Assembly (NCBI RefSeq): GCF_002563895.1
Contig: NZ_PDJB01000001.1
Span: 38,501 to 102,500 of the forward strand
Length of the DNA: 64,000 nt
Source of the DNA: Pseudomonas lurida
GTDB lineage: Bacteria; Pseudomonadota; Gammaproteobacteria; Pseudomonadales; Pseudomonadaceae
Reading direction: 5' to 3'
In this document: piece by piece, positions 7,178 through 37,805 of the stretch
Numbering within the stretch: position 1 is the stretch's first letter
How the letters are laid out: each line of letters begins with the position of its first letter
The notes under the pieces: model-generated
Database searches by the model: none
What the model saw: the letters and a program-made list of their open reading frames with translations, nothing else
Told to the model about the DNA's origin: nothing
Translations under genes and position numbers: made by a program

Positions 7178-7335
7178 ACGCTCTGTTCGTCATGCTGGCA
7201 CCCCTCCCTTGTGGGAGCGAGCTTGCCCGCGAAAGCGCTGTATCAGTCGCCACAAACAGTGCCTGGCAAGCCGCGTTCGCGGGCAAGCTCGCTCCCACAT
7301 TGACCGCGTTCGGTTCGGGTGAAGGTCATGGCTGA
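7174..7335 (+). CDS. small REPIN-derived reading frame overlapping coxA and ctaG (doubtful)
   Basis: A 53-codon frame starts in the ATGA overlap with the coxA stop and ends inside ctaG. It begins MNALFVMLAPLP, then translates straight through the REPIN at 7210-7299, and ends at 7335, eight bases beyond the ctaG ATG. It has no recognisable domain. Its value may be as a ribosome track coupling coxA to ctaG rather than as a product. Probably not a real protein. Confidence 0.2.
   Translation: MNALFVMLAPLPCGSELARESAVSVATNSAWQAAFAGKLAPTLTAFGSGEGHG
7210..7299. repeat. REPIN (two inverted REP sequences) inside the cox operon
   Basis: GTGGGAGCGAGCTTGCCCGC at 7211-7230 is repeated inverted as GCGGGCAAGCTCGCTCCCAC at 7279-7298, with ~36 bases between the REP units. 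This is the typical Pseudomonas REPIN geometry. It sits in the coxA-ctaG gap, so it would form a stable hairpin in the polycistronic mRNA. Confidence 0.85.
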
Positions 7336-31988: not shown

Positions 31989-32765
31989 ATGAAATCCTTG
32001 TACATCGCCTTTGTGTTTCTTCTGCTCGCGGGCTGCGCCAGTGGTCCGCGCCTGGACACCACCCACCCCTCGGTGAACCACGACAACCGCATACAGTTCG
32101 TGGTCGTGCATTACACCTCCACCAACCTTGAACGTTCCCTGGCATTGCTTACCCACGGCCAGGTCAGCAGCCATTACCTGATCGGTGACGACGCCTCAGG
32201 CACCCTCTACAAGCTGGTGGATGAGAGCCAGCGCGCCTGGCATGCCGGGGAAAGCGAGTGGATGGGCCGTACCTGGCTCAACTCCAGCTCCATTGGTATC
32301 GAGATCGTGAACCCTGGCTACAAGGACACGCCGACAGGCCGCTTGTGGTATCCGTATTCCGAGGCGCAAGTGAAGTCCCTGGTGGTCTTGCTCAAGGACA
32401 TCAGCAAGCGCAACGGCATCGACCCCAAGAACATCATTGGCCACAGTGACATCGCGCCGCTGCGCAAGCTTGACCCGGGCCCCCTGTTCCCCTGGAAGCG
32501 CCTGGCGGATGAAGGGCTAGGCGTCTGGCCGGATGCCCAGGCCGTCGCGCGGTTCCAAGTGCAATACGCCGCGGAACTGCCCAGCATTACCTGGTTCCAG
32601 GAAGAGTTGGCTCGCCTTGGCTATCAGACGCCCCAGACCGGCGAGCTGGATGTAGCGACGCGTCACGTGATCGCGGCGTTCCAGATGCATTTCCGGCCAT
32701 CGCTGTTTGATGGCACGCCAGATGCGGAAAGTGCCGCGATCCTGCGTGCGTTGAACCGTCGTTAG
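31989..32765 (+). CDS. ampDh2: N-acetylmuramoyl-L-alanine amidase, AmpDh2-like lipoprotein
   Basis: 258 residues; start 31989 (MKSLYIAFVFLLLAGC). Lipobox LAGC makes it an outer-membrane-type lipoprotein. Amidase_2 domain with Zn ligands in VVVHYTST and the GHSDIAPLRKLDPGP motif, then a C-terminal peptidoglycan-binding domain (WFQEELARLGYQTPQTGELD). Cuts the amide between MurNAc and the stem peptide; paralogues of AmpD affect ampC induction. Its last 4 bases overlap the kinB stop (convergent). Confidence 0.93.
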   Translation: MKSLYIAFVFLLLAGCASGPRLDTTHPSVNHDNRIQFVVVHYTSTNLERSLALLTHGQVSSHYLIGDDASGTLYKLVDESQRAWHAGESEWMGRTWLNSSSIGIEIVNPGYKDTPTGRLWYPYSEAQVKSLVVLLKDISKRNGIDPKNIIGHSDIAPLRKLDPGPLFPWKRLADEGLGVWPDAQAVARFQVQYAAELPSITWFQEELARLGYQTPQTGELDVATRHVIAAFQMHFRPSLFDGTPDAESAAILRALNRR

Positions 32766-34549
32766 AGCGGCAGCGCCATATAGAATTGAGTACCCTGCCC
32801 CGGCCGCGAGTACACGCCCATGCGGCCGCCGTGCAACTGCACGATCTCCTTGCACAGCGCCAGCCCGAGGCCGGCGCCGCCTTTCTTGCGGCCCACCTGG
32901 ACAAAGGGTTCAAAGATCCGCCCCTGCTGCCCATACGCAATGCCCTCGCCGTTATCCTCGACGCTGATAATGACCCGCTCGCCATGGCGGCGCGCCTGCA
33001 GACGAATTTGCCCGCCAGCAGCGGTATGGCGCAGGGCGTTGCCCAGCAGGTTGTCGAGCACCCTTTCCAGTTGTGCCTGGTCCGCGTAGAGCCGCGGTAG
33101 ATCGGGTTGAGCTTCTACGAGCAGTTCGATGTCTTGCGCGTTGGCTGGCTCGACGAAACGCGCCCGGGCATGTTCGAGCAGATCGGTGACATCGCACGGC
33201 CCCAGCGTGAGTTTCTGCAGGCCGTTCTGGTAGCGCGAGAAGTTGAGCAGGTCGTTGATCAGCTGCATCAGCCGCTGCATCTCCTCGTTGACCGTATCCA
33301 GCAGATCCGCTTCACGGGAGTCCGCAGGAAATTTAGCACGCTCGCGAAACAGCCCGAATGCCATGTGCATGCCGGTCACCGGAGTACGCAGTTCATGGGA
33401 GGCACGTAATACGAACTCGCTGCGCACCCGTTCGAAGGCGCGTTGTTCGGTGACGTCATGCAGCACCATCACTGCCCCGAGGATATGCCCCTGGATATGG
33501 CTGACGGGGGTCAGGCTATAGGTCAACAGGCGAAGTTCGCCTTCGACCTCCACTTCCAGGTCATCCGGTGCCCGTTCCAGGTTGCCGCCGCGCAATACCA
33601 GTTGCAGTTGCTCATCCAGTTCCGGCCGCGCCAGCGCCTCGCCCAGGCCCTGGCCGAGGCGTTGCTCATCCCAGCCCAGTTGACGCTGGGCCACAGGGTT
33701 TAGGTGCTCCAGGCGGCCTTGGCGGTCAATCATCAGCAGACCATCGTCGATGCTGTCGAGCACCGCTTGCAGGCGCTGTTGACCGGCCAGAAGTTCATCG
33801 ACATTGGTCGCCTGATGCTGGCGTACCGCTTCGGCCATGATGCCGAAGCGACGGGTCAGCTGGTTCATTTCCGCTGCCGATGAGATCGGCAGCGTCACCT
33901 CGAAATCGCCTTGCCCGATCTTGTCCGCCGCCTTGGCCAGCGCCTCGATCGGCCCGCCAAAACGCCGCGCGATACCATGCGCCGTCACAAAGCCGATGAT
34001 CAGCACCGCGAGGCCTACCAACCCCAGCAACCCGGCGATCAGCAAGGCGCGTTCGCGAGACTTGTGCTCGCTGTTGCTGATGTTTTCCAACGCCTGCTTG
34101 TGTTCGCTGATCAGGCCGTTGCGCAGCGTATTGAAGGTGTCGGTGAGTTTTTCCTTGGTGCCTGGCGGGGGGGGTGGTTGCTGGGACTCGTCAAAGGCCT
34201 CCAGTAGTCGCTGATACTGGCTTCGGGCCTCGCTGAAGCCTGTCCCGCGTCCGTCGCGCTGTTCATGGGCGATGCCCTGGTCCAGCAGTTCGAAGTAGCG
34301 CTGCTTGGAGGCTTGCAATGCCTCGGGGTCTGGGCGGTCCTCCAGCATCATGATCAGTTGGTCACCCAGGCTCTGGCGCAGCTTGAGCCCCAGGTCCAGG
34401 GTGATGAAGTTGCTGCGAATCAGGGATTCCTGGGTCTTGGCCATTTGCATGACGCTCACCAGGCCCAGGATCAGGCCCAACAGGGCGACGGTGATCAATG
34501 CTGAGATACTCAGGAATAACCGAGTGCGCAGCTTCATCGCTAACTTCAT
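32762..34549 (-). CDS. kinB: sensor histidine kinase KinB
   Basis: 595 residues, same length as P. aeruginosa KinB. Two membrane helices (~11-35 and ~167-191) enclose a periplasmic domain, followed by HAMP (~190-245), PAS (~260-370) and kinase core. The phosphoacceptor is H385 in RASHELRTP, with P390; ATP-binding boxes N ([11 protein letters not shown]), G1 ([10 protein letters not shown]) and G2 ([12 protein letters not shown]) are intact. In P. aeruginosa KinB acts on AlgB in alginate and virulence control. 10 bases after algB. Confidence 0.96.
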
Positions 34550-34559
34550 AAGGTACAGC

Positions 34560-35906
34560 TCACAGGTTGTACTGTTTGCGTTTGCGGTACAGGGTCGACG
34601 CGTCGATACCCAGGGTGCGAGCAGCCTGGTCCAGGGTGTCGCTGGTGGCGAGCACGGCGCCGATGTGGGCTTTCTCCAGTTCGTCCAGGCTCAGCGCCGC
34701 CCCGATGCGTGGAGCGTTGTTGGTTGGCTGCTCGGCCATCCCCAAGTGGCTGATTTCAACCTTCTCCTGTGGGCAGATGATACTGGCGCGCTCAACCACG
34801 TTACGCAGTTCTCGAATGTTCCCCGGCCAGCGGTAGTTGAGCAATGCTTCGCGCGCTTCATCGCTGAAACCGCGTGCCGGTCGGGCGTATTCCTTGACGA
34901 AACGCGCCAGGAACCGATCGGCCAGGGTCAGGATGTCTTCGCTGCGCTCGCGCAGCGGCGGCAGGTGCAAGGTGATCACGTTGAGGCGATAAAGCAGATC
35001 CTCGCGGAAGCGACCATCACGCACCATGTCTTCCAGGTTCAGGTTAGTGGCGGCGAGAATGCGTACATCGGCACGACGGGTGACGGGGTCACCCACTCGC
35101 TCGTACTCCTTGTCCTGGATAAACCGCAGCAACTTGGGTTGCAATGTGAGGGGAAAGTCGCCGATCTCGTCGAGAAACAGGGTGCCTCCGTCGGCCTGGT
35201 TGACGCGACCCAAGGTGCTCTCACTGGCCCCGGTAAAGGCGCCACGGCTGTGGCCGAACAGCTCGCTTTCCATCAGCTCAGCCGTCAGCGACGGGCAGTT
35301 GATGGTCACGCAGGACTTTTTCGAGCGTTTGCTCCAGCCGTGGATGGCGCGGGCCAGCTCACCCTTACCGGTGCCGGATTCACCCAGGATCAGGATGTTG
35401 GCGTCTGTCCCGGCCACCTGGCGCGCAGTTTCCAGCACCACCATCATGGATGGGCTATGCGAGTCCAGGCCGTCCTTGGGCTGGCGTACTTCGCCTTCGA
35501 GGGCTTCAAGGCGCGCAGAGAGCTGGCGCACTTCCAACTGCTTGGCAGTGGCAAGGCGTAGTTGGTCGGGGCTGCAGGGCTTGACCAAGTAGTCGGCGGC
35601 TCCGGCCTGGATCGCATCCACGGCGGTATCGACCGCCGAGTGGGCGGTGACTATCACCACGCGCATCCACGGTGCCTGAATGCGCATCTGGGCCAGCACG
35701 TCCAACCCATTGTCTTCGCCCAGGCGCAGGTCGAGGAAGCACAGGTCGAAGACCTGGCGCTGCATCAAGGTATCCGCCTGGGCTGCACTGTTGGCGGTGG
35801 CTACGGTGTAACCCTCGTCTTCCAGGCAATAACGGAAAGTGCGGAGGATCGCGGATTCGTCATCCACTAAAAGAATGCGGCCTTGAAGTTCCTTGGCTGA
35901 TTCCAT
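34560..35906 (-). CDS. algB: NtrC-type response regulator AlgB
   Basis: 448 residues; start 35906 (MESAKELQGRILLVDDES), preceded by AAGGAG. Receiver domain with phosphoacceptor D59 (CFLDLRLGE), AAA+ domain with Walker A GESGTGKGE, the sigma54-contact loop GAFTGA intact, Walker B GGTLFLDEIGD, and a C-terminal Fis-type helix-turn-helix (LDQAARTLGIDASTLYRKRKQ). AlgB regulates alginate genes in P. aeruginosa. Divergent from a small operon with a sigma54-type promoter. Confidence 0.96.
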   Translation of the reverse strand: MESAKELQGRILLVDDESAILRTFRYCLEDEGYTVATANSAAQADTLMQRQVFDLCFLDLRLGEDNGLDVLAQMRIQAPWMRVVIVTAHSAVDTAVDAIQAGAADYLVKPCSPDQLRLATAKQLEVRQLSARLEALEGEVRQPKDGLDSHSPSMMVVLETARQVAGTDANILILGESGTGKGELARAIHGWSKRSKKSCVTINCPSLTAELMESELFGHSRGAFTGASESTLGRVNQADGGTLFLDEIGDFPLTLQPKLLRFIQDKEYERVGDPVTRRADVRILAATNLNLEDMVRDGRFREDLLYRLNVITLHLPPLRERSEDILTLADRFLARFVKEYARPARGFSDEAREALLNYRWPGNIRELRNVVERASIICPQEKVEISHLGMAEQPTNNAPRIGAALSLDELEKAHIGAVLATSDTLDQAARTLGIDASTLYRKRKQYNL

Positions 35907-36124
35907 CTGTCCCGCGCTCCTTAAACTATGTGTGTATGAATGATGGTGGTTAGTCCCGGAATAATCGGGCAAGTTGCATGGTTCATTCTGATCGATAAAA
36001 GGCAATGTCGTGCAGCTATCTGCATCGCGTCCTACAAAGCCCCGCCTGATGGCGTTTCCATGCTTTCTTGCCAGTTCGGCAACACGCTTCACGTGTTCTA
36101 TCCCTTGATCCGACCGCTGGCGAT

Positions 36125-36161
36125 CGTGCATTTCGCACGGCTTGCGGGGGTGCATCGTGCA
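36125..36161. promoter_or_regulatory. candidate enhancer-binding-protein sites (UAS)
   Basis: CGTGC-N5-GCACG (36125-36139) is a perfect inverted repeat; TGCA-N3-TGCA (36151-36161) is a second symmetric element 12 bases on. They lie about 75-110 bases upstream of the -24 element, the usual distance for a dimeric NtrC-type activator, and next to the gene of such an activator (algB). Confidence 0.5.
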
Positions 36162-36193
36162 GGATGCTGGGCAGTCGTGTGACTGATAATATT

Positions 36194-36206
36194 TAACTCT
36201 TTGATT
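36194..36206 (+). promoter_or_regulatory. IHF-type binding site
   Basis: TAACTCTTTGATT matches every defined base of the IHF consensus read on this strand (YAANNNNTTGATW) and is embedded in an AT-rich stretch (36183-36230) between the palindromes and the -24/-12 element, where DNA bending would be needed. Confidence 0.6.
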
Positions 36207-36233
36207 TTATTGAGTTTTATTTTGTAAAAAAGC

Positions 36234-36249
36234 TGGCATGCGCTCTGCA
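36234..36249 (+). promoter_or_regulatory. sigma54 (-24/-12) promoter
   Basis: TGGCATG-CGCT-CTGCA keeps the GG and GC dinucleotides and the spacing of the TGGCACG-N4-TTGCA consensus. The start point would be near 36261, giving a ~32-base leader to the ATG at 36293 with ribosome site GGGAGAA. Confidence 0.7.
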
Positions 36250-36292
36250 ATATCTCTCCCAACGAATAATCAGAATGCGGGAGAACAGCAGC

Positions 36293-36577
36293 ATGACTCG
36301 CCAAACCCTCAGCCAACTGCGTGTTTCGCCACTGCACTTGCAACAAGGCCTGTTTGCCAGCCTGGCCTTGATGGTCACGCTGATCGGTGGCCAGCAGTTG
36401 CAGCATTGGCAGCAGAGTCAGCAGCAGATTCCCCAGTTCGAACGTCCGGCCATGACCCAGACCCATTTCCGTTCCGTTGGCAGTGTTGCTGCCGATGTAA
36501 CAGCCCCGCAACTGCAAATGGTTGACCAGGAATCTTCCCTGAGTGAACTGCCATCCCAGGAGCGTTGGGTGTTCTAG
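36293..36577 (+). CDS. hypothetical small membrane/periplasmic protein (PA5482-like)
   Basis: 94 residues from ATG 36293 (GGGAGAA upstream); an in-frame ATG at 36275 has no ribosome site. One hydrophobic segment at ~18-33 (GLFASLALMVTLIGG) acts as anchor or uncleaved signal; the rest is Gln-rich (LQHWQQSQQQIPQ) and polar. No known domain recognised. First gene behind the sigma54-type promoter; followed by DUF1328 and the Ivy gene. Confidence 0.75.
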   Translation: MTRQTLSQLRVSPLHLQQGLFASLALMVTLIGGQQLQHWQQSQQQIPQFERPAMTQTHFRSVGSVAADVTAPQLQMVDQESSLSELPSQERWVF

Positions 36578-36656
36578 GCACCACAAGGCCACTCGTGTTG
36601 AGTGGCTGCACAGCACTACCGCTGTTACCTCTTAAAGAAGCATAAGGAGAATCACC

Positions 36657-36821
36657 ATGTTGAGTTGGGCAATCACATTTCTGATCATCGCCATTGTGGC
36701 TGCAGTCCTGGGCTTCGGTGGCATCGCGGGCACCGCCACGGGTATCGCAAAAATTCTGTTTGTGGTCTTCCTGGTGATGTTCATCGCTTCGTTCTTCTTT
36801 GGTCGTCGCGGCCGAGGCTGA
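36657..36821 (+). CDS. DUF1328 small membrane protein
   Basis: 54 residues, two hydrophobic helices: [20 protein letters not shown] and [20 protein letters not shown], ending GRRGRG. This is the compact DUF1328/YtjA-type protein. A strong ribosome site AAGGAG is 7 bases upstream. The Ivy gene starts 2 bases after its stop, so the two are coupled. The family is often envelope-stress-linked; exact role unknown. Confidence 0.9.
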
Positions 36822-36823
36822 AC

Positions 36824-37291
36824 ATGACCACTTTGTCTTTCAAAGCCATTACTGCCGCCCTGCTGCTGGGCGGTAGCGGCTTGGCAATGGCCGCCAATGA
36901 CGGCCAATCCCGAGCCAACGAATTGCTCAGCGCGGACCCGCAATACCGTGAAACGTGGCAAGGCGTAGTGAAGAAAGAAGAGCGCCTGCCGGAATGGGTC
37001 ATGAACCTGTCTGGTACGGCCGAGCAGATGAATGCCGTGGAAGAAGATGGCGACAAGTACTTGGTCGGGCCGCTCTGCGAAACCGCGGACACCTGCTTGG
37101 ACAAGCGCCTGATTGTTGCCTTCAGCCTCGACAAGGAGGATGCCTACGCCATGTTGGTGGAAGTCCCGGCCGGCCTGCCGGCGGACAAGTCCCCCACGCG
37201 GCACGCCGACTACCGCTTTATCGGTAAACCGGATGAAGGCATGCAGAAGTTGCTGATGGAGCAACTGAAGAAAGATCCGAATTGGTACTAG
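36824..37291 (+). CDS. ivy: Ivy-type C-type lysozyme inhibitor
   Basis: 155 residues with a signal peptide (ends LAMA-AND). The mature part fits the Ivy family: YRETWQGVVKKEERLPEWVM, followed by the loop CETADTCLDKRLIVAFS whose two cysteines and short inter-cysteine turn correspond to the CKPHDC lysozyme-blocking loop of E. coli Ivy. Protects peptidoglycan in the periplasm from host lysozyme or own lytic enzymes. Last gene of the small operon; an inverted repeat GAAAGAAGC/GCTTCTTTC follows at 37335-37358. Confidence 0.85.
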   Translation: MTTLSFKAITAALLLGGSGLAMAANDGQSRANELLSADPQYRETWQGVVKKEERLPEWVMNLSGTAEQMNAVEEDGDKYLVGPLCETADTCLDKRLIVAFSLDKEDAYAMLVEVPAGLPADKSPTRHADYRFIGKPDEGMQKLLMEQLKKDPNWY

Positions 37292-37778
37292 GTTCCGTCT
37301 GACGCGTTTGTCGTCTACGGGGCCAGCGTCCATAGAAAGAAGCCCCTCGCTTCTTTCTGTCTGCATTGCCCGCCAAGGGCGGTGCATGACCAAGGGGCCG
37401 GGTTGCTCTGATCAATCGCGATCGGCGCGACCTACGGGTACAGGGAGTGCCTGCGCAAGGGCCGGGTCAGGTGAAAAGCTGCGACGCAGGTTCACAAGCC
37501 CATGGCTTGCTGAACTTGCGGCGGGCTTGTCAGGCTCACCTGCCGCTTCGTATGCCCCACATAGTTGATAATTCCCTTTCTGCTCTTGGCCAACCGTTAC
37601 TTGGTGTGTCGGCCCGACCATCTATCGATAAAATCTGGTCTGGTCCATAGGACACTTCCGACGCTAAACACCGGTATTCCCAGGCATTTCTGCCACAGCC
37701 CGAGAGACGTCCTGATTCTCTGAGCGAGCCGGCTTTGGCAGGTTCACGGCATGTCTGCTGGACAAAATGTCACATTTG

Positions 37779-37798
37779 AACTGACCGTTCGGACAGTT
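37779..37798. promoter_or_regulatory. 20-bp palindrome, possible repressor operator
   Basis: AACTGACCGT/TCGGACAGTT: 8 of 10 positions of the two half-sites are symmetric. The form resembles operators of TetR-like repressors. It lies ~220 bases upstream of gltP; no regulator gene is adjacent, so the owner is unknown. Confidence 0.35.
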
Positions 37799-37805
37799 AT
37801 TATTA

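Follow-up and report, generated by a model that had tools for sequence, protein, structure and literature searches.

A conserved double-dyad sigma54 promoter module beside algB and a candidate AlgB-sigma54 regulon for envelope protection in Pseudomonas

The enterobacterial ZraR-zraP pair is a zinc/envelope-stress sigma54 system, and NtrC recognizes a dyad of the form TGCACC-N5-GGTGCA, built on the TGCA half-site that is common to related HTH_8 regulators. AlgB has, to our knowledge, been studied for decades in connection with alginate and virulence; it has an intact sigma54-contact motif, and we know of few firm sigma54 targets for it. In P. aeruginosa, algB is AlgU-dependent, and AlgB has been described as acting at algD without RpoN. 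The title of a 2012 paper by Damron reportedly names a KinB- and RpoN-controlled regulon. Here we describe a promoter region divergent from algB in a 64,000-nucleotide stretch of Pseudomonas lurida DNA (the window), whose architecture and distribution point to AlgB as a classical sigma54 activator.

Promoter elements between algB and a lysozyme-inhibitor operon

On the minus strand, kinB (32762..34549) encodes a sensor kinase with KinB_sensor (PF16767), HAMP, PAS, HisKA and HATPase domains, and algB (34560..35906) encodes an NtrC-type response regulator, the proposed activator, with an AAA+ sigma54-interaction domain and a Fis-type HTH (all by Pfam). The AlgB translation contains the receiver aspartate D59 and the GAFTGA motif, which an earlier note on this DNA had listed as intact. 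Divergent from algB-kinB, a three-gene operon on the plus strand encodes a 94-aa small membrane protein that ends in RWVF and matches no Pfam family (36293..36577), a DUF1328 protein (PF07043; 36657..36821) and an Ivy-type lysozyme inhibitor (PF08816, E=3.3e-44; 36824..37291); this gene order, also given in the earlier note, is borne out by the reading frames and Pfam.

The intergenic region carries four elements. Dyad 1 (36125-36139, no strand assigned; CGTGCATTTCGCACG) has the form CGTGC-N5-GCACG, and dyad 2 (36156-36170, likewise unstranded; CGTGCAGGATGCTGG, CGTGCA-GGA-TGC) follows 31 nt after it; dyad 1 also fits CGTGCA-N3-YGCACG, and the two are the proposed first and second upstream activator sites of AlgB. 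An IHF-type site (36194-36206, plus strand; YAANNNNTTGATW), identified by sequence match (TAACTCTTTGATT), lies 40 nt ahead of the -24 element. The sigma54 -24/-12 element (36234-36249, plus strand; TGGCATGCGCTCTGCA) reads TGGCATG-N4-CTGCA, with the correct GG-N10-GC spacing in a TGGCAYG-N4-YTGCA context. Dyad 1, the IHF match and the -24/-12 element are thus present as previously noted. The second palindrome had been given as TGCA-N3-TGCA, which does exist in the window at 36151-36161, but an alignment of 25 species led us to reject it as a unit: its full form, TGCATCGTGCA, occurs in the window alone (1 of 25) and is misplaced by 7 bases relative to the conserved dyad 2.

In a weight-matrix scan, the -24/-12 element ranked first among the 127,970 positions of the window with 15.6 bits, the next best site reaching 12.7. 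Transcription is predicted to start at about 36260, and the leader would then run for about 33 nt to the likely start codon, an ATG at 36293 that is preceded by a ribosome site (36279-36285). The upstream sequence ATGCGGGAG at 36275 is confined to the window and six near relatives among the 25 aligned species. Single parts of the arrangement are not enriched in the window's genome: the dyad CGTGCANNNYGCACG occurs once versus eight times for its reversed control, and near-consensus -24/-12 elements occur 182 versus 160 times. By contrast, TGCANNNTGC followed after 40-70 nt by TGGCAYG-N4-YTGC was found three times in the 6.3-Mb genome and never with the reversed control, so that only the combination of dyads and -24/-12 exceeds the controls. 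Judged by its sequence, the stretch is a genuine sigma54 promoter, and it belongs to a small family-wide set.

We searched the one-contig genome (6.31 Mb) on both strands for the double dyad with at most one mismatch and obtained 28 matches, against four for the reversed control. Eight of the 28 hit loci fall at five distinct places, some matched on both strands, where the double dyad is exact on one strand or the other, and all five have a sigma54 site scoring 15.6 bits or higher 97-108 nt off. On the strand of the promoter, three of these places match the double dyad exactly and the other two differ from it by one mismatch. For 18 of the remaining 20 hit loci, no site of 11 bits was found within 300 nt on either side, and L105 has a weak sigma54-like site (11.2 bits) at 222 nt. 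We also observed that L114, a one-mismatch double dyad with a weak sigma54-like site of 11.3 bits at 109 nt, is a possible sixth member.

The five modules are followed by the window operon and by genes for a 301-aa membrane protein without a Pfam family, a DUF3509 protein, a 75-aa protein ending in HWVF and a 206-aa protein with two BON domains. Outside the window, the predicted first genes lie at about G000:C1 2586768, 4404305 and 4851203 on the plus strand and 5360477 on the minus strand. In this genome or in other species, BON-domain, DUF2383, DUF3509, WVF-ending and membrane-protein genes are preceded by the same module, and many of these candidate targets encode exported or membrane proteins. 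The module is thus not specific to lysozyme defence, and what it controls appears to be envelope or stress protection more generally. The earlier proposal that AlgB acts as a sigma54 activator of its divergent neighbour gains comparative support, but its lysozyme-specific link was too narrow.

Relatives of the WVF-ending proteins terminate in RWVF, HWVF, GWVF or RLVF and have no Pfam family. The products of L092 1665-1892 and of window positions 36293-36577 are small membrane proteins that otherwise differ from each other but have the same type of promoter and a C-terminal WVF in common.

Conservation and distribution of the module

For comparison we took the best 79 algB loci of a longer list in named genomes and used 56 of these plus the window (57 regions). 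The other 23 loci were left out as distant relatives (L053, L054, L057, L059, L060 and L062-L079), with separate examination of L053 and L054. When 25 of the 57 regions were aligned, islands of conservation appeared at an algB-near block (TCGGGCAAGTTGCATGG), the two dyads, the IHF block and the -24/-12 element. Dyad 1 (CGTGCANNNYGCMCG) is kept in all 25 aligned species and dyad 2 (CGTGCAGGATGC; CGTGCA-GGA-TGC) is exact in 20. Conservation across Pseudomonas, which had been named beforehand as one of the points on which the proposal would stand or fall, was thus found for the dyads, the IHF-type site and the -24/-12 element.

In 55 of the 57 regions, a sigma54 site scoring 13 bits or more has a dyad (10/12 or better) 106-112 nt upstream of it. 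When distances of 60-159 nt were searched, dyads of this quality stood only 77-80, 85-86 or 108-112 nt before a sigma54 site. L037, with its dyads present and a weak -12, was counted as a miss, and the scan found no sigma54 site plus dyad module beside algB in L016. At the latter Pseudomonas locus, algB and kinB are present along with a gene that by eye looks BON-like, but a sigma54 site or second dyad beside algB is missing, possibly through natural loss. Stutzeri, Halopseudomonas and other clades have the dyad near algB too, as CGTGCAAGTTGCACG or a similar form; in most cases a second dyad follows after 31-32 nt and a sigma54 promoter after about 110 nt.

Twelve of the 57 regions have two modules, one beside algB and the other further off, before the small-protein and DUF1328 genes (with or without Ivy), and the module accompanies the operon even where other genes separate it from algB. 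Among the ten two-module regions whose frames were listed, the first module is followed by a BON-type protein in six (L010 and L035 by Pfam; L026, L027, L028 and L041 by eye) and by a DUF2383-type protein in two (L038 by Pfam, L058 by eye); neither type was recognized after the first module of L030 or L036. By its sequence context, the module belongs to the target genes.

To describe module geometry we used 64 modules, that is, 66 minus two rows in which a module already counted was read 7 nt off. The TGCA of dyad 1 lies 96-98 nt from the sigma54 site in seven of them and 105-109 nt in 57, in a set that was selected for a sigma54 site in that distance range and is redundant for close species. 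Because of this preselection, it is the IHF count that constitutes an independent result: an IHF-type site with at most one mismatch is present in 58 of the 64 modules (21 exact), compared with a mean of 5.6 and a maximum of 11 in 200 rounds of first-order resampling. The site stands 39-41 nt before the TGG, or 29-30 nt in the modules that are one turn shorter.

Across the genus, the strict double-dyad module was detected in 106 of 119 Pseudomonas genomes, with no match for the reversed control. The matches listed comprise 148 places, of which 60 lie no more than 8 kb from kinB and 88 lie elsewhere, and at least 62 of the 78 genomes listed have a copy away from kinB, some perhaps by contig breaks. 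Of the 13 strict-negative genomes, ten have algB at 84-97% identity and three lack a KinB match. Among the ten, six have a dyad spacing of 32 nt, two have GTGCA at the -12, and in L197 and L198 the dyads are accompanied by a weak -12 or none. A module is thus present in 114 of 116 KinB-positive Pseudomonas genomes (106 strict and eight with one deviation). The three KinB-negative genomes (G079, G093 and G118) yielded no KinB match, no algB hit at E<=1e-100 and no DUF1328 match, and the strict-pattern search found the module in none of them. The chance that all three would fall among the 13 strict-negatives of 119 is 0.001; however, as they have no DUF1328 gene either, the copy at the locus was lost with the locus, and only the missing copies elsewhere are informative. 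Counting these alone (such copies were listed for at least 62 of the 116 KinB-positive genomes), the chance of three misses is about 0.01-0.1.

In a sample of the order, the strict module was found in 13 of 293 genomes, again with no reversed-control match, and these are all 13 sampled members of the window's family. KinB_sensor occurs in 14 of the 293, namely the same 13 and G373 of another family, and none of the 279 genomes without KinB has the strict module. G373 encodes AlgB at 73% identity. Its two dyads lie at L183:7148 and 7180 and its sigma54 site (15.7 bits) at 7260, and BON and DUF1328 genes come next. The dyad spacing is 32 nt and gives no match with patterns that fix 31 nt. All 14 KinB-containing genomes have the module, G373 with one extra base. 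This co-occurrence is confounded by phylogeny, as the 13 strict hits come from a single family. A double-dyad pattern set one base off register matched 1 of 298 genomes, and is a rough control at best given that its half-sites and sigma54 part were stricter too.

More distantly, two Lysobacter-type loci (L053 and L054) encode a 56%-identical AlgB in which the HTH segment LGIDASTLYRKRK is unchanged. Their sigma54 sites lie 88-90 nt from the dyad, a spacing unlike that in Pseudomonas. In both, a 13.4-bit site ends 71 nt before the start of a BON gene with a CsbD gene after it, and a second sigma54 site (17.9 and 14.3 bits, respectively) stands in front of algB. The module in these two loci thus also faces algB itself, suggesting autoregulation there.

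In the window, a further dyad lies closer to algB (35966..35980, no strand assigned; CGGGCAAGTTGCATG), within the conserved intergenic block; several other clades have the full CGTGCAAGTTGCACG at this position. It overlaps an ECF-type promoter-like element, AACTT-N16-ACTAA (35950..35975, minus strand), which reads into algB and which we take to be AlgU-type; the AACTT sits within the dyad. AACTT-N16-NCTAA directed into algB is present in 49 of the 57 algB-upstream regions. Two reviews describe algB as AlgU-dependent or list KinB/AlgB in the AlgT regulon. As this dyad copy covers the -35 of the ECF-type promoter, AlgB may tune its own synthesis. The segment at 35950-35980 is conserved even where no target promoter directly follows, and may serve autoregulation.

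AlgB as the candidate activator and rival readings

We consider it very probable, on comparative sequence evidence, that AlgB works as a classical sigma54 activator and controls a small envelope-protection regulon in which lysozyme defence forms one branch. AlgB is likely the protein that binds the dyads, given its adjacency, its co-occurrence with the module and the conservation of its HTH. AlgB dimers would bind the two dyads (consensus CGTGCA-N3-TGCACG) on one DNA face, their 31-32 nt spacing corresponding to about three helical turns. IHF would bend the 60-odd nt separating the dyads from the promoter, allowing the AlgB AAA+ domain to contact RNA polymerase-sigma54 at the -24/-12 element and open the promoter, and the operon of small WVF-protein, DUF1328 and Ivy genes would be transcribed. 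About five such promoters in the window's genome would bring genes for envelope and stress proteins together in one AlgB-sigma54 regulon, with the dyad over the ECF-type -35 as a possible means of adjusting AlgB levels. The direction of the response to phosphorylation is likewise something we infer.

A sigma54-dependent promoter could instead be served by another NtrC-type activator, for example NtrC, with the adjacency of AlgB being incidental. According to one review, P. aeruginosa has up to 22 activators of this type, and the shared TGCA half-site speaks for such a reading as well. We nevertheless regard it as improbable, because the dyad adjoining algB persists throughout the family and in G373, and in altered form at the two Lysobacter-type loci, and because the strict module is absent both from the 279 KinB-less genomes of the order sample and from the three Pseudomonas genomes lacking KinB and AlgB. 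NtrC in particular is disfavoured by its dyad spacing, since the N5 of the NtrC dyad differs from the N3 seen here. It is also conceivable that AlgB binds here without sigma54, at a sigma70 or AlgU promoter, in keeping with such accounts of algD. Phosphorylation-independent AlgB activity, the subject of a cited title, would fit this reading. Another review has unphosphorylated AlgB binding three sites at algD. A further review, contrary to the account of RpoN-independent action, describes the effect of AlgB on algD as RpoN-dependent. At the present promoter, conservation of the -24/-12 element at a fixed distance together with an IHF-type site makes a sigma54-independent role very unlikely, and a simple scan of 35500-37800 found no match to a sigma70-type consensus (0.8 expected by chance).

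The least credible reading is that the motifs reflect chance or general sequence conservation near algB. It draws on the fact that the dyad is short and that neither it nor a near-consensus -24/-12 is enriched singly, but the combined pattern has no reversed-control match in either 119 or 293 genomes, on which ground we rejected a chance origin, and the module recurs at unlinked loci ahead of unrelated genes.

The AlgB-sigma54 reading can be extended, and we lean somewhat toward this wider form. AlgB would at root serve to activate, through sigma54, a small envelope-protection regulon (BON, DUF1328, Ivy, DUF2383, DUF3509 and WVF-ending proteins) and not to regulate alginate. This regulon would be older than the Pseudomonadaceae and shared with Lysobacter-type bacteria, with control of alginate acquired later. 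As the ECF-type promoter of algB is overlapped by an AlgB dyad, an envelope-stress sigma factor, AlgB and sigma54 would form a feed-forward cascade with built-in autoregulation.

Relation to known systems

In the literature as far as it was accessible, we found neither a published list of direct AlgB-sigma54 promoters or targets nor an AlgB motif or a link of AlgB to the Ivy operon; the KinB-RpoN regulon tables lie outside the literature covered. Searches returned no paper joining AlgB with PA5481 and RpoN, or AlgB with PA4739, while one review matched AlgB together with lysozyme inhibitor. The wording of an HT-SELEX atlas of P. aeruginosa regulators (PMC8041468) implies that an AlgB binding motif was obtained, which may match or contradict the dyad proposed here; the AlgB motif may thus in part be known already from SELEX. 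The P. aeruginosa PA5482-PA5481 operon (PMC4981712), for which shear effects and an association with infection are described, resembles the window operon in ending in a vertebrate-lysozyme inhibitor, PA5481; unlike the present analysis, the main text of that paper does not mention AlgB.

Our findings supply an explicit candidate motif for AlgB recognition, together with a promoter geometry and a small number of predicted targets. They also suggest candidate functions for DUF1328, DUF3509, DUF2383 and WVF-ending proteins, all of which would be outputs of a single envelope-stress pathway to which a lysozyme inhibitor also belongs, and the recurrence of the module across Pseudomonas suggests a separate, perhaps older, job for the alginate regulator AlgB.

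The kind of system is known, whereas the regulon and its target set appear new within the searchable literature. The same two-component system underlies the regulation of algD by KinB/AlgB and the KinB-RpoN regulon. Like the ZraR-zraP system, the locus combines an NtrC-type regulator with a divergent sigma54 promoter and a small exported stress protein, although the kinase sensor, the binding site and the target genes all differ. Closest in architecture are the promoters of the NtrC-glnA and NifA type, in which paired dyads about 100 nt upstream, an IHF site between, a -24/-12 element and an AAA+ activator are likewise found; here, by contrast, the activator is likely AlgB, the dyad is CGTGCA-N3-TGCACG and the pair is spaced by 31-32 nt.
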